Assembly (NCBI GenBank): GCA_017501355.1 | Contig: JAFVXA010000034.1 | Coordinates: 1 to 64,000, forward strand | DNA length: 64,000 nucleotides | DNA from: Oscillospiraceae bacterium | Lineage (GTDB): Bacteria; Bacillota; Clostridia; Oscillospirales; Oscillospiraceae | Reading direction: 5' to 3' | Shown: positions 1,113 to 12,838 of the stretch, piece by piece | How the letters are laid out: every line of letters starts with the position of its first letter | Numbering within the stretch: the first letter of the stretch is position 1 | Notes under the pieces: generated by a model | Seen by the model: only the letters and a program-made list of their open reading frames with translations | What the model was told of the DNA's origin: nothing | Databases searched by the model: none | Translations under genes and position numbers: made by a program

Positions 1113-2156
1113 ATGAAGAGATTTGATCCCAAGCCCGTCCTGAACACCGAGCGTTTTGAAGCTTGCTTCAAGGCTATCGATGCTCACACCGAGGGCGAGT
1201 TCTGCCGTGTCGTTTACGCTGGTTTCCCCGAGGGCGTTGGCGATACCATTCTGGACCGTAAGTACTATCTGCAGAAGAATTACGATGAGTATCGTAAGGC
1301 TCTGATGCTCGAGCCCCGCGGTCACCACGATATGTTCGGTGCCATCCTGGGCGAGCCTGTCAATCCCGAGGCTGACTTTGCTGTGTACTTCATCGATACC
1401 GGCGGGTGGCTGAACATGTGCGGTCACTGCACCATCGGTGCTGTCACCGTGGCTCTGGAGACCGGCATGGTCGAGTGCAAGGAAGGCGTCAACTACGTCA
1501 ACATTGATGCACCCGCAGGCCTGGTCAAGACCGAAGCTGTCGTTGAGAACGGCAAGGTCAAGAGCGTCACTCTGACCAACGTCCCCGCTTTCCTGTACAA
1601 GGAAAACCTGGAAGTCGAAGTTGACGGCAAGAAGATCAAGTTCGACATCTCCTTCGGTGGCTCCTTCTTCGCTCTGGTCGATACCCGTCAGGAGAGCCTG
1701 AACATCGACATCAGCGCTAAGACCGTTCCCGAGCTGACCGATATCGGTATGAAGATGATGGAAATCATCAACAAGACCATCGAGATCAAGCATCCCGAGC
1801 TCGATATCACCACTGTCGACCTGGTTGAGTTCTATGGTCCCGCTAAGTCCGCTAACGCTAACAAGCAGAACGTCGTCATCTTCGGCGAGGCTCAGGCTGA
1901 CCGCAGCCCCTGCGGCACCGGTACCTCCGCTAAGCTGGCTACCCTGTATGCTCGCGGCGAGATCGGCATCGACGAGCCCTTCGTTTACGAGAGCTTCATG
2001 TGCACCCAGTTCATCGGCCGCGTGAAGGAAGAGACCACCATGGGTCCCTTCAAGGCTATCGTTCCTCAGGTTACCGGCGCTGCTTACCTGACCGGCGAAG
2101 CTACCTACGCTATCGATCCTCTGGACAAGCTGGGCAAGGGCTTCATCGTTGGCTAA
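1113..2156 (+). CDS. prdF: Proline racemase (proline reductase locus)
   Basis: This 347-residue cytosolic enzyme belongs to the PLP-independent proline racemase family, which interconverts L- and D-proline with two cysteines as general acid and base. Both catalytic cysteines are present: Cys103 in MCGHCTIGA and Cys267 in DRSPCGTGTSAK. The length fits the family (about 335). D-proline is the substrate of proline reductase, and the divergent prdC gene supports the role in Stickland fermentation over the alternative, 4-hydroxyproline epimerase, which has the same fold and both cysteines. AAAGGCGG at 1095 precedes the ATG. Codon use is strongly biased, as in a highly expressed gene. A terminator follows directly. 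Confidence 0.9.
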   Translation: MKRFDPKPVLNTERFEACFKAIDAHTEGEFCRVVYAGFPEGVGDTILDRKYYLQKNYDEYRKALMLEPRGHHDMFGAILGEPVNPEADFAVYFIDTGGWLNMCGHCTIGAVTVALETGMVECKEGVNYVNIDAPAGLVKTEAVVENGKVKSVTLTNVPAFLYKENLEVEVDGKKIKFDISFGGSFFALVDTRQESLNIDISAKTVPELTDIGMKMMEIINKTIEIKHPELDITTVDLVEFYGPAKSANANKQNVVIFGEAQADRSPCGTGTSAKLATLYARGEIGIDEPFVYESFMCTQFIGRVKEETTMGPFKAIVPQVTGAAYLTGEATYAIDPLDKLGKGFIVG

Positions 2157-2204: not shown

Positions 2205-2897
2205 TTTGCCCCGATTCAGTTTCTGCTTCCTCTCCCGCCAATCAGGATGAAAGCGATCCATCCATTCATAGAATTTCGCCGAATGATCTGCCTGCAAAAA
2301 GTGACAGAGCTCGTGGATCAGTATGTACTCTCCGCACTCCAAGGGGTGCGCCAACAGCTGCGTGTTCAGCGTCACCACGCCCTTACGCGGCATACAGCTG
2401 CCCCAGCGAGAGCGCATTGAGCGAAAGCGCAGCGTCGGCTTCGGCACGCCATAGGACACGAACGGGGGATAGACCCGCTCCAGCGCTGCCGTCATCACGC
2501 GGCGGCATTCTTCCTTTTCCCAGCGCTCCAGCGCCGCGAGCCTGCGCTCCTCCTCGTCTGCCCGGGGAAGGGTCAGATACAGTTCCCCCTCCGTTCTCTG
2601 CGCCCCATAGCGCCGCCCCTGCTCAAAATGCAGCCGCAGCGCAGCGCCAAGATAGGGGATCTCCTGCCCGTCTGCCGCCGCACGCGGCGCACGCTGCGTC
2701 TCCATCCTGCCTACAGCCTTCCAGATAAACTCCTGTTTCTGTTGCAGGAAACCCTCCACCTGCTCCATAGGCATCCGCGGCGGCGCAGACACCGCCACGC
2801 TGCCGTCGTCACGAATGCGGAGATTGCAATTTTTCACCCGCTTTCGGGTAAACTCATAGACAAGTACACGCCCGCCCAGACAAATTTCCTTCCGCAT
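2202..2897 (-). CDS. YgjP-like zinc metallopeptidase domain protein
   Basis: This 231-residue protein has the YgjP/SprT-like metallopeptidase architecture (DUF45, M48-related). The C-terminal half carries the zinc motif HELCH at about residues 195-199 and a downstream histidine in ADHSAKFYEWM. The family signature RSRWGSC lies upstream of it. The N-terminal 80 residues resemble the beta-rich segment of YgjP relatives. No signal peptide is seen, so it is probably cytosolic. The physiological substrate of this family is not established. The gene is monocistronic, between two terminators. Confidence 0.85.
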   Translation of the reverse strand: MRKEICLGGRVLVYEFTRKRVKNCNLRIRDDGSVAVSAPPRMPMEQVEGFLQQKQEFIWKAVGRMETQRAPRAAADGQEIPYLGAALRLHFEQGRRYGAQRTEGELYLTLPRADEEERRLAALERWEKEECRRVMTAALERVYPPFVSYGVPKPTLRFRSMRSRWGSCMPRKGVVTLNTQLLAHPLECGEYILIHELCHFLQADHSAKFYEWMDRFHPDWRERKQKLNRGK

Positions 2898-2944
2898 CCC
2901 ATCACCTCTGTCCCCATTGTATCCCTCCCCCGCTCTCGCGGCAA

Positions 2945-2973
2945 GGAAAATCGGCTCCCTGCGGGAGCCGATC
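2945..2973 (-). terminator. Intrinsic terminator of spoVT
   Basis: On the minus strand ATCGGCTCCC pairs with GGGAGCCGAT and is followed by TTTTCC just after the spoVT stop. Confidence 0.8.
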
Positions 2974-2975
2974 CG

Positions 2976-3518
2976 TTATCCTTCCATGTGCCGACCGAGG
3001 AGCGATGCCAGTGTCTGCACCAGCTTAAATTCCGTTTCACTGCTGCCCTGCTCCGGGTTTTCCGTTACCACCAGCACCAGCCCCATGGCATCACCGCCGG
3101 AGATCACAGGGGCTGCCAGCACCGCCAGCAGACGCTCGTTGTCCGCAGTCACCCGCACAGGATGCACATTGTCTCCACTGCGGAAAATGCGGCGATCCTC
3201 CATGATCTGCTCCAGTTCCTCGCTGATATGCTTCCCCAGCAGCTCCCGCTTGAAGCCGCCGGAGATGGCAATGATCGTATCGCGGTCTGCCACCGCCACC
3301 GTCTGCTCCACGCTTTTGCTCATGGTCTCGCAGATCTGCGCCGAAAAATCATCCAGATCGCCCAGCAGGGAATACTTTTTGAAGATGACTTCGCCCTCTT
3401 TGGAGGTATAAATTTCCAGCGGGTCGCCCTCGCGGATGCGCATGGTACGGCGAATCTCCTTGGGGATCACCACCCGCCCAAGATCGTCGATGCGGCGCAC
3501 AATTCCTGTTGCTTTCAT
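2976..3518 (-). CDS. spoVT: Stage V sporulation protein T
   Basis: This 180-residue protein matches SpoVT, the forespore transcription factor that tunes sigma-G genes. The N-terminal AbrB-type swapped-hairpin domain (about 1-50) starts MKATGIVRRIDDLGRVVIPK, and a GAF-like domain follows (about 55-178). Length and ends agree with the family. The ATG has AAGGAGAG in front of it. A sigma-G-like promoter sits upstream, in keeping with forespore expression in Bacillus subtilis. It shows that the host sporulates. Confidence 0.95.
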   Translation of the reverse strand: MKATGIVRRIDDLGRVVIPKEIRRTMRIREGDPLEIYTSKEGEVIFKKYSLLGDLDDFSAQICETMSKSVEQTVAVADRDTIIAISGGFKRELLGKHISEELEQIMEDRRIFRSGDNVHPVRVTADNERLLAVLAAPVISGGDAMGLVLVVTENPEQGSSETEFKLVQTLASLLGRHMEG

Positions 3519-3553
3519 ATATGAATCTCTCCTTATTTTACAAGCTGCATTGT

Positions 3554-3582
3554 TAGTATCTGTAAAGCGAAGAGATTTATAC
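3554..3582 (-). promoter_or_regulatory. Sigma-G-like promoter of spoVT
   Basis: On the minus strand GTATA (3582-3578), a 17-base spacer and GATACTA (3560-3554) resemble the sigma-G consensus with one mismatch in the -10. B. subtilis spoVT is sigma-G dependent. Confidence 0.4.
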
Positions 3583-3636
3583 TTTTATTTGAAATCGGCG
3601 CTGCGGACTCAGAATTTTGCAATTGCCCTGGACATA

Positions 3637-3689: not shown

Positions 3690-4499
3690 TTACTTCACAG
3701 CTGCAGCCTTTGCCTTTTTCTTCTGCTCCATCTTGGAGATCCAGAGAGCACAGGTTGCGTCACCGGTGATGTTCAGCGTGGTACGACCCATGTCAAAGAT
3801 CTTGTCGACACCGGCGATGATAGCGATACCTTCCACAGGCAGACCAACGGTCTCCAGCACCATTGCCAGCATGATCATACCTGCGCCGGAAACACCGGCA
3901 GTACCGACGGATGCCAGGGTCGCAGTCAGCACGATCATAGCCATGTCCGCAATCGTCAGCGTGACATCATAGCAGCAGGCAATGAAGATGGCTGCGACAG
4001 CCTGATAGATCGCAGTACCATCCATGTTGATGGTCGCGCCAAGAGGCAGCACGAAGGAGCTGATCTCAGGCTCAGCACCCAATTTGTTGCAGCACTCCAT
4101 GTTGACAGGCAGCGTTGCATTGGAAGAGGTGGTGGTAAATGTGGTGATCATAGCGGGAGCGATGCCCTTGAAGAAGGCAAAGGGGTTCATACCGGAGAGG
4201 AATTTGACGCTCGCGCCATAGACGATCACAATGTGCAGGAAGTAGCCCAGATAAGCCACACCAATGACCAGCGCCAGTGTACCGACAATGGAAGCGCCGT
4301 TGACAGCGACCACGTTGGTCATCAGGCAGAACACGCCGATGGGAGTGAGCTTGATGATCATCATCATGATCTGCATGATGACTTCGGTCATGCTGTTGAT
4401 CGCCTTACCGATCATCACGCCCTTCTCACCGGCAGCCAGAACACCGGCGATCATACCAATGAAGATCCATGCCGGCAAAGAGAGTTTGCGTTTAGACAT
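3690..4499 (-). CDS. Dicarboxylate/amino acid:cation symporter with TM2-TM4 missing
   Basis: The protein belongs to the DAACS (GltP/DctA) family but has only 269 residues, while full members have about 400-420. The core transport domain is intact: HP1 serine-rich loop (TTTSSNATLPVN), TM7 NMDGT, HP2 (GTAGVSGAGM) and TM8 DMGRTTLN. The N-terminus (MSKRKLSLPAWIFIGMIAGV) is a normal TM1, but it joins directly to GEKG and TM5, so roughly 150 residues covering TM2-TM4 are absent in frame. The scaffold needed for trimerisation and elevator transport is therefore incomplete. It may be a decayed gene, a partner subunit or an assembly deletion. RBS GAGGAGG precedes the ATG. Confidence 0.8.
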   Translation of the reverse strand: MSKRKLSLPAWIFIGMIAGVLAAGEKGVMIGKAINSMTEVIMQIMMMIIKLTPIGVFCLMTNVVAVNGASIVGTLALVIGVAYLGYFLHIVIVYGASVKFLSGMNPFAFFKGIAPAMITTFTTTSSNATLPVNMECCNKLGAEPEISSFVLPLGATINMDGTAIYQAVAAIFIACCYDVTLTIADMAMIVLTATLASVGTAGVSGAGMIMLAMVLETVGLPVEGIAIIAGVDKIFDMGRTTLNITGDATCALWISKMEQKKKAKAAAVK

Positions 4500-4663
4500 A
4501 GAAACAACCTCCTCATATAGTTGATGGGCTTATTATAGCAAATCTGCATAAAACGCCAGATATGCGCCGGCAAATTAACGCAATCATTGTGCACCTTGAC
4601 GACATCTTTGCACTGTGCCCCCTCTTGCAGTTCCATCCAACTCCCCGTCCTGCCGCCTTTTGT

Positions 4664-4732: not shown

Positions 4733-5152
4733 TTAGTCGGGGATCTGCCCTTCCTTGCCGCCAAGGAGGAGCGCAAGGGAGGTCACAAGGGTCACAGCAG
4801 CAACGCCCTTGCCCCAGAGTGCGGTGATCTGGCAGCGCATTTCTTCGCTGGCGCAGACACCGATGAGGCTGGTAAAGACCATAAACAGCAGCACCGCTGC
4901 CACTGCATTGACAACCGCAAACTTCTTATAATCCTTCTTGGCAAGGAGACCCATCACAGCGGTCACAACGATCAGCACACTCACAACAAGCGCTGCCTGC
5001 CCTGCCCAGTGGCACTTCATGGGCACCGAATTGCCGTTTGCCAGTTCCAGCATTTTGCCGCAGACGGGTGCCCAGAGCTTCACCGCGCCGATCAGAACAA
5101 GCCCTGCCACCGCCTGCACTGCGATCAGAATATTCGCCATCTTCGTTTTCAT
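4733..5152 (-). CDS. DUF4418 family membrane protein
   Basis: This short protein of about 139 residues has four predicted membrane helices and paired cysteines in the extracytoplasmic loops (PVCGKM, KCHWAG, GVCAS, RCQI). It matches DUF4418, a family often encoded beside MacB/FtsX-type ABC transporters. The ATG at 5152 is preferred because AAGGAGG sits 6 bases upstream; that RBS overlaps the stop codon of the ATPase gene, so translation is probably coupled. It is the last gene of the leftward sigma-factor operon. Its function is unknown; an accessory role in the transporter is inferred from position. Confidence 0.75.
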   Translation of the reverse strand: MKTKMANILIAVQAVAGLVLIGAVKLWAPVCGKMLELANGNSVPMKCHWAGQAALVVSVLIVVTAVMGLLAKKDYKKFAVVNAVAAVLLFMVFTSLIGVCASEEMRCQITALWGKGVAAVTLVTSLALLLGGKEGQIPD

Positions 5153-5165
5153 TGTCGCATCCTCC

Positions 5166-5831
5166 TTATTCCGCAATATCCACCAGTACGCCGTCTTCCA
5201 GTCGGCAGCGTCTGGTTGCTTCCTGTGCCCAGCGGCTGTTGTGGGTAACCATGACCACCGCCGTGCCCTTTTCCGTCTGCTCCTTCAGCACACGGATAAT
5301 TTCCTCAGACCAATGCTCATCCAGATCGTTGGTGGGCTCATCCGCGAGGATCAGCACCGGATCATGGATCAGCGCTCTTGCCGCCATGGCGCGGCGGCGC
5401 TGACCGCCGGACAGCTGATGAGGGAAGAAGTCCGCACGATCCTCGAGACCAAAGCGATACAGCAGCTCATCCACCATTTTGGGGTCTTTTTTGCCGCCCA
5501 CACCCTGGGTAAAGAGCAGATTTTCCCGCAGGGTCAGCGCCTGAATCATGGTGCTGTCCTGAAACAGGAAGCCGACCTTTTTTGCCCGTAGTTCGGATTT
5601 CTCATCGTCACCAAACTTCGCAACATCCCTGCCTTCAAAGGTATAGCTGCCCTCGTCACTCTGCAGCAGGGTACCCATGACATACAGCAGGGTACTCTTG
5701 CCGATACCGGAGGGACCCTCCACGGCGATAAAATCACCTTTGTTTACCACAAGAGACACGTCCTTCAGCGGGGTAACGACCTCACCCATGCGATAATCCT
5801 TGCGAATATGTTCCAGCTTGCAGATTTCCAT
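5166..5831 (-). CDS. ABC transporter ATP-binding protein (MacB/LolD type)
   Basis: This 221-residue ATPase has Walker A GPSGIGKSTLL, ABC signature LSGGQRRRAM, Walker B VLILADEPTNDLD and the switch histidine (VTHNSR). The size and sequence match the LolD/MacB/FtsE group that works with FtsX-like permeases. It starts 1 base after the stop of the permease gene, so the two form one transporter. The substrate is unknown; members of this group move peptides or lipoproteins or act as mechanotransmitters. Confidence 0.93.
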   Translation of the reverse strand: MEICKLEHIRKDYRMGEVVTPLKDVSLVVNKGDFIAVEGPSGIGKSTLLYVMGTLLQSDEGSYTFEGRDVAKFGDDEKSELRAKKVGFLFQDSTMIQALTLRENLLFTQGVGGKKDPKMVDELLYRFGLEDRADFFPHQLSGGQRRRAMAARALIHDPVLILADEPTNDLDEHWSEEIIRVLKEQTEKGTAVVMVTHNSRWAQEATRRCRLEDGVLVDIAE

Positions 5832-5832
5832 C

Positions 5833-7038
5833 TCAGTTCACCTCACCCTGTGTAATTGCCGCCTGGGGATCCATAGATGCACTCTTCAGCGCGGGAGCTA
5901 CCGCTGCCGCAAAGCCAAGCACCGCTGCCAGCACAATGCCCGCAAGACCGCACAGCAACGCTAGCGAGCTCGTCCAGACAGAAGGCGACAGTTTGAATGC
6001 ATCCTTCAGCATTTCGATGATGGGATTCATGGCAAGCAGCGCCAAAGCACTGCCCAGCACACCGCCCATGAGCGCCATGGTGCAGGTCTCGCCGATGATC
6101 AGGCCAAACACCTGCCCCTTCTTCAGACCGATGGCACGGAGCAGACCGATCTCCTTCTTGCGCTCCTTGGCAAGGGCATTGAAGCGACCCACCAGTGCCA
6201 GCACTGCAATCAGCAGAGATGCCAGCCACAGCGCAAACATGACCTTCATCGTCACTTCCAGCTGACTCTGCAGAGTGGAAATCGTGTCGCCGGTAAGCAG
6301 ACACTTGATCTCAAGACCGGAAGCCTCCACCTGTTTGGCAAATTCCTCCCCGTCTACACCGCTTTCAAACTTCACCATGATGACAGAAATGTAGTCGTGG
6401 GGATCTCTGGTCGTCCAGCTCTCTGCGAGAACCTCAGATTCCAGACACATATCCTGCGCCGTGCGGAAATCCATAAACAAGGTCCCGTCCATACCTGCAC
6501 CCGTAGGGGGCAGTGCCGTAACCACGTTAAACTTCTTGCTCAGCACCAGATAGTTGGAACCCACAAGATTGTCATCCTCAAAGTTGCGTCCGACAATCAG
6601 CTCGTCGGGACTGATGCCATTTTGGTACTTCTCATCGAGGTGGGGCTTCAAAATAAAGTCCGTGGCAGGATCATAACCGATGATGCGGGCTTCCTCACCG
6701 GGCTCGCAGCAGGACAGTGCCAGCGTCTGGCAATAGAACTGAGGAGTCATGGCAGCGATACCTTCAAACTGCTTCACTTCCTCCACCATTTCGATGGGCA
6801 TATAAATGTTTTCGGGAATCGCAGTAAAGAGCAGATCTTCCCCCTTTGCAGCGGCGTATTTCGGCACCAGCACCGCATCCGCGCCAAGGCGCTCCTCACT
6901 GAGCGCAAGGCCCTGATTCACCGTCTGAAACACACCCAGCACCATCACAAAGACCAGCACCGTCAGCATGGTAATGGTCACTGTCAACGTAGACTGCGTA
7001 CGACGACGGGAAATATTTTTCCAAATCAGCATCAGCAT
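5833..7038 (-). CDS. FtsX-like ABC transporter permease
   Basis: About 400 residues with an N-terminal membrane helix, a large extracytoplasmic MacB-like periplasmic core domain (about 40-270) and three C-terminal helices of the FtsX domain with the typical KERKKEIGLLRAIG motif. This is the permease of the downstream ATPase. The chosen ATG at 7038 lies 12 bases after AGGAGG; an ATG at 7050 directly abuts that RBS and is the other candidate. It follows the anti-sigma gene by about 20 bases in the same operon. Confidence 0.9.
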   Translation of the reverse strand: MLMLIWKNISRRRTQSTLTVTITMLTVLVFVMVLGVFQTVNQGLALSEERLGADAVLVPKYAAAKGEDLLFTAIPENIYMPIEMVEEVKQFEGIAAMTPQFYCQTLALSCCEPGEEARIIGYDPATDFILKPHLDEKYQNGISPDELIVGRNFEDDNLVGSNYLVLSKKFNVVTALPPTGAGMDGTLFMDFRTAQDMCLESEVLAESWTTRDPHDYISVIMVKFESGVDGEEFAKQVEASGLEIKCLLTGDTISTLQSQLEVTMKVMFALWLASLLIAVLALVGRFNALAKERKKEIGLLRAIGLKKGQVFGLIIGETCTMALMGGVLGSALALLAMNPIIEMLKDAFKLSPSVWTSSLALLCGLAGIVLAAVLGFAAAVAPALKSASMDPQAAITQGEVN

Positions 7039-7060
7039 TTTCTTCCACATCCTCCTTTGT

Positions 7061-7759
7061 TCATTCCCCGCAGGGATTTTCCAACTTTTCAAATTTTGCA
7101 AGAGCCATGACCTCCGCCTTCGGCATCAGCGCCACCGCTTCCACCGTGATGGAGGGGTCTTTCTCTTTCAGCTGCTGCCACACCTGATAGCGCAGCACAC
7201 ACAAGCCAACTCTTCTTGCCGCGCGGGCAGTCTCTGGGTCTGTCTGACAATAGAAAATATTGTCTTCCTCCGCGATAGCATAAGCACGACAGACCACGTT
7301 GCTCAACATCTGTTCCGCAAGGGATTCATCCTTGCCCACCACAGTGATGGAGATCAGGCTCCCATCCTCCAGATAGGGCTCCAGCGGCTCACTGATGAGG
7401 ATGCGCTGCATGGCATCGTCATAGCGCATACCTTTGACGTTCAAGCTGTCCACAAGGGCAAGTCCGTCTGCATTCATCCCTTTCAGTTCTGTCACCCTGC
7501 CAAAGGTGTTGACCCTGAGCTCCAGCGAGGGGTTGATGTCAAGGTCGATGCTGGTCACAGGCAGGAGCCACATTCCCGCACCCATAACCATCAGCATCAC
7601 CGCCGCAGCGCAGCTCACCATTCTCGTTTGCCGCTGCCTGCGCCGCTGCGTATCACGACCGTAGTCCAGCGTTGCCCTGCGCAAATACGCCTTGGTTCTT
7701 CGCTTCAAGCGCTCGTCTGCCTGCACCGCGTCAAAAGCTTTTTGCAGGTCATTCTTCAT
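7061..7759 (-). CDS. RsgI-like membrane anti-sigma factor
   Basis: About 232 residues: a cytosolic basic N-terminus (about 1-48), one membrane helix (about 49-65) and an extracytoplasmic region beginning SIDLDINPSLELRVNTFGRV, the hallmark of the RsgI N-terminal/periplasmic domain that follows the membrane helix in SigI-type anti-sigma factors. It overlaps the ECF sigma gene by 11 bases, the usual arrangement for a sigma factor and its inhibitor. ATG 7759 lies 8 bases after GGGAGG; an upstream GTG is less likely. It probably holds the sigma factor inactive until an envelope signal arrives. Confidence 0.8.
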   Translation of the reverse strand: MKNDLQKAFDAVQADERLKRRTKAYLRRATLDYGRDTQRRRQRQTRMVSCAAAVMLMVMGAGMWLLPVTSIDLDINPSLELRVNTFGRVTELKGMNADGLALVDSLNVKGMRYDDAMQRILISEPLEPYLEDGSLISITVVGKDESLAEQMLSNVVCRAYAIAEEDNIFYCQTDPETARAARRVGLCVLRYQVWQQLKEKDPSITVEAVALMPKAEVMALAKFEKLENPCGE

Positions 7760-8234
7760 CAGCAACACCTCCCAGTCGTTCTCTCAGCAGTTCCTTTGCC
7801 CTGCGCAAATGGGTATAGACCGTATTCGGGTTTTTCCGCAGGATGCCCGCGATCTCGGGGGCGGTGTAGCCTTCGTAAAAATGCAGATAGATCACCTCGC
7901 GGTAATCCTTCGGCAGCTCACGCACCGCCTGCCAGACACGGCTCTGCTCCTCGCTCATTTCCGTGACGCAGTCTGCCGCTTCCTCCAGCGGCACCGTACA
8001 TCTGCGAAACAGATTCTTCAGTGAATCCTTACAGGCATTGGCTGTCACGCGGATCAGCCACGCCTTTTCATGCTCTTCGCTTTCAAAGCTCTTGTCACTG
8101 AGGGTATATTTCAGAAATACCGACTGAAAAACATCCTCCGCATCCTGCGGATGCTTGAGGTACACCATACAAAGCCGCAAAACCATATCGGCATAGCATT
8201 CCACAGCCCGATTCACTTCCTGCTCGCTTCGCAT
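7749..8234 (-). CDS. ECF RNA polymerase sigma factor
   Basis: This 161-residue protein has sigma region 2 (LKHPQDAEDVFQSVFLKY, about residues 26-43) and region 4 (YREVIYLHFYEGYTAPEIAG then a recognition helix NPNTVYTHLRRAK). It is the first gene of a five-gene leftward operon with its RsgI-like anti-sigma, an FtsX-type ABC transporter and DUF4418. On the minus strand TGAATG, 17 bases and CGTATT upstream resemble ECF -35/-10 elements, so autoregulation is possible but untested. Confidence 0.92.
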   Translation of the reverse strand: MRSEQEVNRAVECYADMVLRLCMVYLKHPQDAEDVFQSVFLKYTLSDKSFESEEHEKAWLIRVTANACKDSLKNLFRRCTVPLEEAADCVTEMSEEQSRVWQAVRELPKDYREVIYLHFYEGYTAPEIAGILRKNPNTVYTHLRRAKELLRERLGGVADEE

Positions 8235-9257: not shown

Positions 9258-10970
9258 TCAGTCGTGGTGGGTATGCAGCAGGCGATGAGACCGCTCGCCC
9301 AGAGGTGCCTTCAGATACTGGCGGTAGAGCGCCTGCACATCGGGATTCTCATGGGAGAAGCGGATGGGTGCCTTGGCATCCAGCTTCCAGAGCTGATTGC
9401 CGCGGCTTGCCGCCAGCTCCTTGCCCTCATGGATGGGCTGTCCGCCGCCGCCGGCGCAGCCGCCGGGACAAGCCATGACTTCCACAAAGTCATAGTCCAC
9501 CGTGCCGCTGTCCACCGCTTCCATGAGCTTGCGGGTGTTGCCGAGACCGCTCACCACTGCCACGCGCACCTTGCCCGCGCCGGGGATCTCAAAGGTAGCT
9601 TCCCGCCAGGGTTTGTTGCCGCGAACCTCGGAGAAGGCATCGGGGTCAGGGTTCTTGCCGGTGACCAGATAGTACGCGCTGCGCAGCGCCGCATCCATCA
9701 CGCCGCCGGTGGCACCGAAGATCACAGCGGCACCTGTACCCGTGCCGAAGGGACTGTCAAATGTCTCATCCTCCAGCTCCGCAGGATCCACAAAGTCGCT
9801 GCGGAACAGGCGGCACATCTCGCGGGTGGTCAGCACCACATCCACATCGGGATCGCCGTTTGCCGCCTTCATGCTGGGCAGCTCGCACTCCGCTTTCTTG
9901 GCGGAGCAGGGCATGACGGAGACCACGCAGATCTTCGCAGGGTCAACGCCGATCTTCTCCGCAAAGAAGCTCTTCACCACAGCGCCAAACATCTGCTGAG
10001 GGGACTTGGCGGTGGAGAGATGCTCCTTATAGGCGGGATACTGACTCTTGAGGAAGCTGACCCAACCGGGGCAGCAGGAGGTAAACATGGGCCAGCGGTG
10101 CTTACCGCGGCGGGTAAAGCGCTCAAGGAACTCGCTGCCCTCCTCCATGATGGTAAGGTCGGCGGTAAAATTGGTGTCAAAGACATAGTTGAAGCCCATG
10201 CGCTTGAGGGCTGCCACCATGCGCCCCGTGGATGCCTTCGCACCCTCGAGACCGAACTCCTCTGCCCATGCCACACGCACAGCAGGTGCCACCTGCACCA
10301 CCGTGATGATCTCGGGATCGGCGATGGCGCGGAGCACACGGTTGGTGTCGTCGCGAACGGTGAGCGCACCGGTGGGACAATGGGTCACGCATTGACCGCA
10401 GAAGGTGCAGTCCGTATCCTTCAAAGAGCGCCCCACCTTCACATCCACCGTGGTGCGGGAACCTGTTCCCACCACGTCCCAGATGTTCATGCCCTGAATC
10501 TTGTCACAGACCTGCACACAGCGCATACACTTGATGCACTTGCCCGCCTCACGCACCACAGGAACGCTCAGATCCACACGGGAACGCTCGGGCTGCACAT
10601 CATAGGTCTGATAGTGAATGTTGAGATCCTGCGCCAGACGCTGCAGCTCGCAGTTGCCGCCGCGGATGCAGGTGGTGCAGTTGGAGTTGTGCTGGGAAAG
10701 AATGAGACGGAGGTTGGTGCGGCGGGCACGACTGACGCGGGGAGAGTTGGTGTGGATCACCATACCCTCGGTCACCTGCGTGTTGCAGGCGGGCACCAGA
10801 CGGTCCGTGCCCTCCACCTCCACCATGCACATACGGCAGGCGGCAATCTCGTTGATCTCCTTGAGATAGCACAGATGAGGAATGGGGATACCGGCTTTTT
10901 CGGCAGCTTCCAGAATGGTCGTGCCGGGCTTTACACTGAGTTCCCGATCATTGATCTTGAAATTTACCAT
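9258..10970 (-). CDS. hydA: [FeFe] hydrogenase catalytic subunit, NAD(P)-linked type
   Basis: This 570-residue protein has the full M3-type layout: a 2Fe-2S domain (Cys34, 45, 48, 62), a His/Cys 4Fe-4S site (His94, Cys98, 101, 107), two 4Fe-4S clusters (Cys145-155 and Cys188-198) and the H-cluster domain with TSCCP (297-301), MPCSAKKAE (353-361) and ACPGGCAGGGGQP (500-512). All H-cluster cysteines are intact. It catalyses reversible hydrogen production in the cytosol. Its start overlaps the upstream flavoprotein gene by 7 bases, so the two are translationally coupled and probably form one complex. The maturases HydEFG are not in the window. Confidence 0.96.
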   Translation of the reverse strand: MVNFKINDRELSVKPGTTILEAAEKAGIPIPHLCYLKEINEIAACRMCMVEVEGTDRLVPACNTQVTEGMVIHTNSPRVSRARRTNLRLILSQHNSNCTTCIRGGNCELQRLAQDLNIHYQTYDVQPERSRVDLSVPVVREAGKCIKCMRCVQVCDKIQGMNIWDVVGTGSRTTVDVKVGRSLKDTDCTFCGQCVTHCPTGALTVRDDTNRVLRAIADPEIITVVQVAPAVRVAWAEEFGLEGAKASTGRMVAALKRMGFNYVFDTNFTADLTIMEEGSEFLERFTRRGKHRWPMFTSCCPGWVSFLKSQYPAYKEHLSTAKSPQQMFGAVVKSFFAEKIGVDPAKICVVSVMPCSAKKAECELPSMKAANGDPDVDVVLTTREMCRLFRSDFVDPAELEDETFDSPFGTGTGAAVIFGATGGVMDAALRSAYYLVTGKNPDPDAFSEVRGNKPWREATFEIPGAGKVRVAVVSGLGNTRKLMEAVDSGTVDYDFVEVMACPGGCAGGGGQPIHEGKELAASRGNQLWKLDAKAPIRFSHENPDVQALYRQYLKAPLGERSHRLLHTHHD

Positions 10971-12802
10971 TTATCCACACGTCCTCCCTTGAAGTTTCCG
11001 AAACCGAAGCGGTCACAGCGCAGGCAGCGGGAAGATTCCTGTGCCGCTTCTTCGTCGGTCATGCTGCATTCGATGCAGGCAAAATCGCACTTTCTCTCGC
11101 TGGCATCGCGCTCGGTGGGGTTGACACGGCCGCGGGGACGCAGGTCCGTGCAGCTGGGAACAGGCACTTCCACACCGGAATGGATCTCGTGGTGGAAGCC
11201 CAGATATTCGTCGATATTGGCAGCTGCCGCCTTACCTGCCGCAATGGCGCGGATGACGGTAGCAGGACCGGTGACGCAGTCGCCGCCGGCAAACACACCC
11301 TCCATATCGGGCAGCTGGGTGCTGGCATTGGCAGAAAGGGTGCCGCCGCGCTGGATCTTGATGCCCGCCTCCTCAAAGCCGCGGGTCTCAATGCCCTGAC
11401 CGATGGCGACAATGACCACCTCCGCCGGGATGCGCAGGGGCTCCACCGCCGCGTTGCCGGGACGGGGACGACCTGCCTTGTCCACTTCGCCGATGATCTG
11501 AGGCTGGGTCCAGAGGGCAACGGTGTTGCCGTTCTCGTCCGCTTCGATGCGCAGCGGTGCCTGCAGGGGCATAACCTCAGCGCCCTCAGCGATAGCGCCT
11601 TCCACTTCCTCTGCCTGCGCAGTCATATCCTCGATGCGGCGGCGGTAGACGCAGGTCACCTTCTCCGCACCGAGACGGATGGCACTTCTCGTCACGTCCA
11701 TGGCGACGTTGCCGCCACCGATGACTGCCACGCGCTTGCCGGTGAAATCAGGCATATCTTCATCACCGATCTGACCGAGCATCTGCACCGCAGAGATCAC
11801 GCCCTTGCTGTCCTCGCCCTCAATGCCCACTTTCTTGTCGGTGTGCGCACCAATGGAGAGATACAGGCAGTCATACTTTGCCGTGAGTTCCTCGAAAGAG
11901 ATATCATTGCCCACCTTGACACCGGTATGTACCTCAATGCCAAGGGAGAGAATGGACGCGATCTCCGCATCCAGCTTTTCTCGCGGGAAGCGATAGCTGG
12001 GGATGCCATAGCGCATCATACCGCCAAGCTTCTGCCGCTTTTCATATACCGTGACCTTGTGACCCATGAGCGCCAGATAGTAGGCAGCAGAAAGACCGCC
12101 AGGACCGCCGCCGATAACCGCCACGGACTTGCCCGTAGCAGGTGCGACCTTCGGCTGGGGCACGTCCCCCGCCTGATCCACCGCATAGCGCTTGAGACCG
12201 CGGATGTTCACCGCGTCGTCCACCATGTTGCGGCGGCAGCGCGCCTCGCAGGGGTGCTCGCAGATGTAGGCGCAGGCAACAGGGAAGGGATTGTCCTTGC
12301 GGATGAGGCGCACTGCGTCGGCGCAGCGTCCCTCCTTCACCAGTGCCACATAGCCGGGGATATCCACACCGGCAGGGCAGAGTGCCGTGCAGGGCACGGG
12401 GTTCTTCAGCGAACCAAGGCAGCGATGATGGAGAATGTGCTCCTCATAGTCATCGCGGAAGCCCTTCAGTCCCATCAGCACCAGATTTGCCGCGTCAATG
12501 CCGATGGCGCAGTCCGCTGTGTCCACAATGGTCTGGGCGGTCACTTCCATGCGGTCGAGGATGGAGAGGTCGGGTTCGCCATCCAGCACCTCATGCAGCA
12601 TATTGGACAGCTGCGCCAGACCGATACGGCAGGGGGCGCACTTGCCGCAGGTCTGTGCGCGGCAAAGATCCAAAAAGTTCAGCGCCATGTCCACAGGGCA
12701 CAGTCCCGGAGGGCTGGCCGCAATGCGGCGCTCCATGTTTCGATACAGCTGTTCCACAGTCGCCTGGGCACGGCTGGGAGTCTTGACTTCAAGCCTGCTC
12801 AT
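10964..12802 (-). CDS. NuoF C-terminal domain fused to GltD-type NAD(P)H:FAD oxidoreductase
   Basis: This roughly 612-residue protein combines a NuoF-type 4Fe-4S domain (Cys52, 55, 58 in TCGKCAPCRIG and Cys98) with a glutamate-synthase small-subunit-like module: an N-terminal cysteine region (CTALCPAGVDIPGY, CEHPCEARCRR), an FAD Rossmann motif (VIGGGPGGLSAAYYLALMG), an NAD(P) Rossmann motif (VIGGGNVAMD) and a C-terminal cysteine motif (CIECSM, CLRCDRF). The FMN-binding part of NuoF is missing. It likely carries electrons between NAD(P)H and the hydrogenase encoded next. ATG 12802 is chosen over an in-frame TTG. This resembles glutamate-synthase-linked [FeFe] hydrogenase loci. Confidence 0.9.
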   Translation of the reverse strand: MSRLEVKTPSRAQATVEQLYRNMERRIAASPPGLCPVDMALNFLDLCRAQTCGKCAPCRIGLAQLSNMLHEVLDGEPDLSILDRMEVTAQTIVDTADCAIGIDAANLVLMGLKGFRDDYEEHILHHRCLGSLKNPVPCTALCPAGVDIPGYVALVKEGRCADAVRLIRKDNPFPVACAYICEHPCEARCRRNMVDDAVNIRGLKRYAVDQAGDVPQPKVAPATGKSVAVIGGGPGGLSAAYYLALMGHKVTVYEKRQKLGGMMRYGIPSYRFPREKLDAEIASILSLGIEVHTGVKVGNDISFEELTAKYDCLYLSIGAHTDKKVGIEGEDSKGVISAVQMLGQIGDEDMPDFTGKRVAVIGGGNVAMDVTRSAIRLGAEKVTCVYRRRIEDMTAQAEEVEGAIAEGAEVMPLQAPLRIEADENGNTVALWTQPQIIGEVDKAGRPRPGNAAVEPLRIPAEVVIVAIGQGIETRGFEEAGIKIQRGGTLSANASTQLPDMEGVFAGGDCVTGPATVIRAIAAGKAAAANIDEYLGFHHEIHSGVEVPVPSCTDLRPRGRVNPTERDASERKCDFACIECSMTDEEAAQESSRCLRCDRFGFGNFKGGRVDKW

Positions 12803-12838
12803 AATGCACAAAGTCCTTTCCTTATTAGAATTACCTTT

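Follow-up and report, generated by a model that had tools for sequence, protein, structure and literature searches.

An in-frame internally deleted dicarboxylate/amino acid symporter gene in an Oscillospiraceae genome

A gene near the start of the window (the 64,000-nt stretch of Oscillospiraceae bacterium contig JAFVXA010000034.1 that was analysed) encodes a 269-aa protein of the SDF family. The open reading frame begins with ATG and contains no internal stops over its 269 codons, and the whole assembly (G000) has it in an identical position, on contig C32 of 86,931 bp. The features of the locus are as follows:

3690..4499, minus strand: internally deleted SDF-family ORF of 269 aa (dicarboxylate/amino acid:cation symporter), from the ORF list and Pfam
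4449..4499, minus strand: retained N-terminus and first part of TM1, MSKRKLSLPAWIFIGMI, with 90% identity to the TM1 start of relative L036
4436..4448, minus strand: deletion junction zone GCCGGTGTTCTGG, encoding AGVL, where 426 bp are missing, from sequence and alignment to relatives
3693..4435, minus strand: retained TM4 end, TM5, TM6, HP1, TM7 (NMDGT), HP2 and TM8, with 88-89% identity to relative L034
4014..4028, minus strand: TM7 NMDGT motif, residues 158-162, from translation and alignment
4508..4513, minus strand: ribosome-binding site AGGAGG, 5' of the ATG, read from the sequence
4532..4537, minus strand: promoter-like -10 element TATAAT preceded by TGC (extended -10 type), read from the sequence

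No good -35 element accompanies the TATAAT at 4532-4537, and the promoter scanner did not list this site. With its ribosome-binding site and start codon kept, the short gene is probably expressed. A gene for a SpoVT/AbrB-type regulator (2976-3518, minus strand; Pfam) lies directly downstream, and a strong terminator-like hairpin of 16 pairs (4705-4671) lies between the symporter and the genes upstream of it. Those genes (4733-7101 and 7061-8234, minus strand) probably form one or two operons and encode, in order, an ECF-type sigma factor, an anti-sigma-like protein, an FtsX/MacB-type permease, an ABC ATPase and a DUF4418 membrane protein; the sigma and anti-sigma assignments were made by eye from translations, and the others are Pfam matches. 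Translations read by eye also point to a proline racemase-like ORF at 1113-2156 (plus strand, opposite to its neighbours) and to two overlapping ORFs at 9258-12811 (minus strand) for [FeFe]-hydrogenase-type and NADPH-glutamate-synthase-like/NuoF-type subunits.

The protein matches the Pfam SDF profile (PF00375) with an E-value of 7.8e-83 and 279 bits, against a cut-off of 27.9, and is a member of the SDF/DAACS family by descent. Residues 12-256 of the protein correspond to profile positions 139-386 of 387; because the match begins only at position 139, the first third of the domain is absent, and the protein does not contain the whole SDF domain (TM1-TM8, HP1 and HP2). The open frame, the partial Pfam match and the alignments thus bear out the proposal, made from the sequence alone, of an SDF symporter with an in-frame internal loss.

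Alignment to full-length relatives on both sides of the junction showed that 142 codons (426 bp) are lost relative to most of the close ones, with a range of 138-145 codons over all relatives aligned. The segment comprises the last part of TM1, all of TM2 and TM3, and most of TM4, so that the beginning of TM1 now runs directly into the TM4 end. When full-length L036 is aligned with the archaeal transporter GltPh, this segment is equivalent to GltPh residues ~24 to 164. The sequence-only reading had placed the loss at TM2-TM4 with the frame kept, which agrees with these alignments; its estimate of about 150 removed residues was right about the loss and somewhat too large. The parts that it named as present, the TM1 start MSKRKLSLPAWIFIGMIAG, HP1, NMDGT, HP2 and TM8, are all found in the window protein. 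These last four elements are shared with full-length SDF/DAACS (SLC1-like) proteins of Clostridia (L036, L034/L083, L042 and L045), from which the window protein differs in lacking the 142 codons from the end of TM1 to most of TM4.

Two further SDF genes are present in the genome, and neither is shortened: a 441-codon frame on contig C40, 55% identical to the short form, and a 424-codon gene on contig C38, 26% identical. A search of the same genome for the lost segment found only its counterparts in these paralogues (51% identical in the C40 gene, distant in the C38 gene), so the segment has not simply moved. We likewise looked for a full-length copy of the window gene elsewhere in the genome and found none.

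A protein search identified L034 (89% identity), L036 (81%) and L035 and L037 (80-81%) as the closest relatives. Over the retained ~245 residues, identity to the closest relatives is 75-89%. Full-length relatives up to 81% identical have 142 codons more than the window gene. In the genome of L034 the gene is split over two contigs, one ending with ...SVMSVITGIF and the next starting with PDSFLKPMVDANMLP...; the pieces together span TM1 to TM8, and the protein match suggests that the contigs meet inside the gene. Contigs of L034, L035 and L037 all start within this same gene, between TM2 and TM4, and these breaks may reflect paralogue repeats or low coverage. Synteny with L034 is weak, as the downstream SpoVT/AbrB-type gene is only 44% identical and another ORF lies between; we therefore regard L034 as the nearest relative of the gene and not as a sister strain. 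L036, from a water buffalo caecum MAG, carries two tandem full-length SDF genes (930-2162 and 2326-3609) with 83% identity to each other, and G426 likewise has two close SDF copies, on different contigs.

We used the short protein to search for homologues in 400 genomes of the family, 394 of the order and 291 of the class. At about 170 homologue places the frames are ~395 codons or longer, contig-end cases aside; the shorter frames, in G153, G226 (contig C74), G423, G424 and G426, lie at or near a contig end. Two of these were considered as further short forms and rejected: the 312-codon frame of G153 keeps TM4 and starts in unrelated sequence near a contig end, and the 152-aa fragment of G226 belongs to a 3,333-bp contig that ends at the match. 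Among the about 170 places in the family, order and class searches, the window copy alone carries this deletion. The many independent short homologues that the sequence-only reading had named as evidence for an established short family were thus absent from these searches, and we reject such a family.

To the left of position 4448 the window gene has TM1-like sequence, ATTGGTATGATC, encoding IGMI; to the right of 4436 it has TM4-end-like sequence, CTGCCGGTGAGAAG, within LAAGEKG. Between them, at 4448-4436, lies a single 13-bp word, GCCGGTGTTCTGG, that resembles both sides of the deletion in relatives. A deletion between direct repeats leaves one copy behind. Relatives carry imperfect forms of this word in TM1 and in TM4, encoding AG(I/V)L in the same frame: GCAGGTATTCTGG (TM1) and GCCGGCGTTCTGG (TM4) in the closest relative, and GCCGGTATTCTGGCC and GCCGGCATTCTGGCC in L045. 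Because the two words are in the same phase, a deletion between them must be in frame. In L042 and L045 the AGxL pair is the best 15-bp direct repeat in the gene at a spacing of 330-510 bp; in several other relatives it is not the strongest repeat of the gene. Deletion between short direct repeats had been suggested earlier, with two copies of GCCGGTG as the repeat pair. The mechanism is plausible, but that pair is not the right one: its copies, at 4448-4442 and 4433-4427, both lie in TM4-end sequence, which is intact in relatives as GAGVLAAGE, and they are therefore not the two sides of the deletion. The single GCCGGTGTTCTGG word at the junction is a better candidate.

In GltPh, the trimerization scaffold consists of TM1, TM2, TM4 and TM5, and the transport domain of TM3, TM6-TM8 and the hairpins (PMC4900748). 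TM3 forms part of the third sodium site, Na3 (PMC7682989), to which Thr92, Ser93 and the Tyr89 backbone contribute (PMC4900748). The short form aligns with GltPh positions ~185-418 and has nothing that corresponds to positions ~24-164; scaffold helices TM2 and TM4 and the Na3 ligands of TM3 fall within the missing part. Three of the four trimerization helices are thus lost in whole or in part, and TM5 and the start of TM1 are kept. The earlier description of a core without its trimer scaffold is apt for TM2, most of TM4 and the end of TM1, but TM5 and the start of TM1 stay, and TM3, which belongs to the transport domain, is also gone. Based on the alignment, the lost residues include the equivalents of Tyr89, Thr92 and Ser93, where full-length relatives keep YYxxTT. 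The substrate, Na1 and Na2 motifs of HP1, TM7, HP2 and TM8 are conserved (TTTSSNATLP, NMDGT, SVGTAG and DMGRTTLNITGD).

Three spans, an odd number, are lost; if the fused TM1/TM4 piece and all other remaining spans insert, the positively charged N-terminus (MSKRK) and the lysine-rich C-terminus (KMEQKKKAK) would face opposite sides of the membrane. AlphaFold2, run with the same 8 sequences for both proteins, gave a pLDDT of 82.4 and a pTM of 0.84 for a full-length relative versus 47.5 and 0.36 for the short form. The model of the full-length relative matched GltPh structures with TM-scores up to 0.91 (6x13), and it shares the fold of the archaeal aspartate transporters GltPh and GltTk (7ug0, 6x13, 6xwn and others). 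With this control the contrast carries meaning, but as the alignment is so shallow it is a weak hint, and not proof, that the short form misfolds. Because most of the scaffold, the Na3 ligands of TM3 and an odd number of spans are lost, the 269-aa protein is probably not a working transporter.

The retained codons give no clear sign of decay in stops, dN/dS or relative-rate counts. Compared with L034, they have an NG86 dN of 0.068 and a dS of 0.79. In the maximum-likelihood protein tree the window branch measures 0.082 versus 0.036 for L034. Relative-rate counts were inconsistent between outgroups, with one of ten nominally significant, and did not consistently show more replacements in the window lineage than in that of L034. 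These values suggest either a recent deletion or continuing constraint on the copy. The low dN/dS ratio integrates the time before the deletion and is therefore compatible with a recent event without demonstrating function.

We consider it likely that the short gene arose by deletion from a full-length DAACS/SDF gene, through short-repeat recombination, and is now a young, pseudogene-like, probably non-functional allele. The ancestor would have been an ordinary gene for an SDF-family symporter of ~410 aa that couples dicarboxylate/amino acid transport to sodium or protons. Slippage, or some other event independent of RecA, may then have removed 426 bp between two short, imperfect direct repeats, one in TM1 and one at the TM4 end, both encoding AG(I/V)L; as they specify this tetrapeptide in a common frame, the outcome would be in frame. 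The product, without TM2, TM3 and most of TM4, would most likely be a non-functional, misassembled transporter. In-frame deletion alleles that arose through illegitimate recombination at short homologies have been described as small variable segments (PMC2884548); the repeats of <30 bp and the preserved frame are alike here, and the mechanism proposed for the window gene differs in being deduced from relatives' sequences rather than from a pair of strains.

The true gene might instead be full length, with the assembler, or a minority of chimeric reads, having joined the imperfect repeats and dropped 426 bp. The assembly consists of 62 contigs, all tree neighbours are full length, and the contig breaks within this gene in L034, L035 and L037 may mean that it is hard to assemble. 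However, the inferred repeat, as seen in relatives, matches at no more than about 10-14 of 15 bp, usual assembly k-mers are longer than this repeat, and the junction is internal to an 87-kb contig, with some 4.4 kb to the contig end and a reading frame that is clean. We judge such an artefact unlikely, although it deserves some weight. A population with both full-length and deleted forms, of which the assembly shows one, would fit the observation that short-repeat deletions are a common source of differences between strains (PMC2884548). This assembly contains no second form, and a simple deletion cannot be reversed when the lost segment has no copy elsewhere; we give a polymorphic state hardly any credence.

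The short form might also be kept because it has a function, for example by associating with the full-length C40 paralogue and modulating it, or as a reduced binding or channel core. The open frame, the intact ribosome-binding site, the low dN/dS over the retained part and the presence of that paralogue in the same genome are all consistent with such a role, and truncated human isoforms, which purely computational work proposed to disturb the assembly of trimers (PMC11599315), offer a parallel; a literature search for human exon-skipping variants returned no matching paper. However, no other sampled species has the short form, low dN/dS is expected anyway if the deletion is young, the parts that contact partners or form the Na3 site (TM2, TM3 and most of TM4) are gone, and the charged ends would face opposite sides if every remaining span inserts. 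A functional miniature is therefore improbable in our view, and it is very improbable that a reduced five-span SDF protein folds and works, whether its topology is altered or dual or it pairs with the full-length paralogue.

The window gene thus appears to be an otherwise ordinary transporter gene with a real-looking, lone in-frame deletion. It is most likely a loss-of-function allele of recent origin, a single damaged copy rather than a novel type of transporter. Should the short protein work, for which nothing in this analysis provides support, it would be a test case for the role of the scaffold, and a working five-span form would mean that an elevator core does not depend on TM3 and most of the scaffold. 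The AGxL words illustrate how in-frame deletions can become likely where short repeats specify one and the same transmembrane tetrapeptide. For annotation, the case is a matter of hygiene, as a pipeline could call the short form a dicarboxylate/amino acid symporter on its high profile score, even though a third of the domain is missing.
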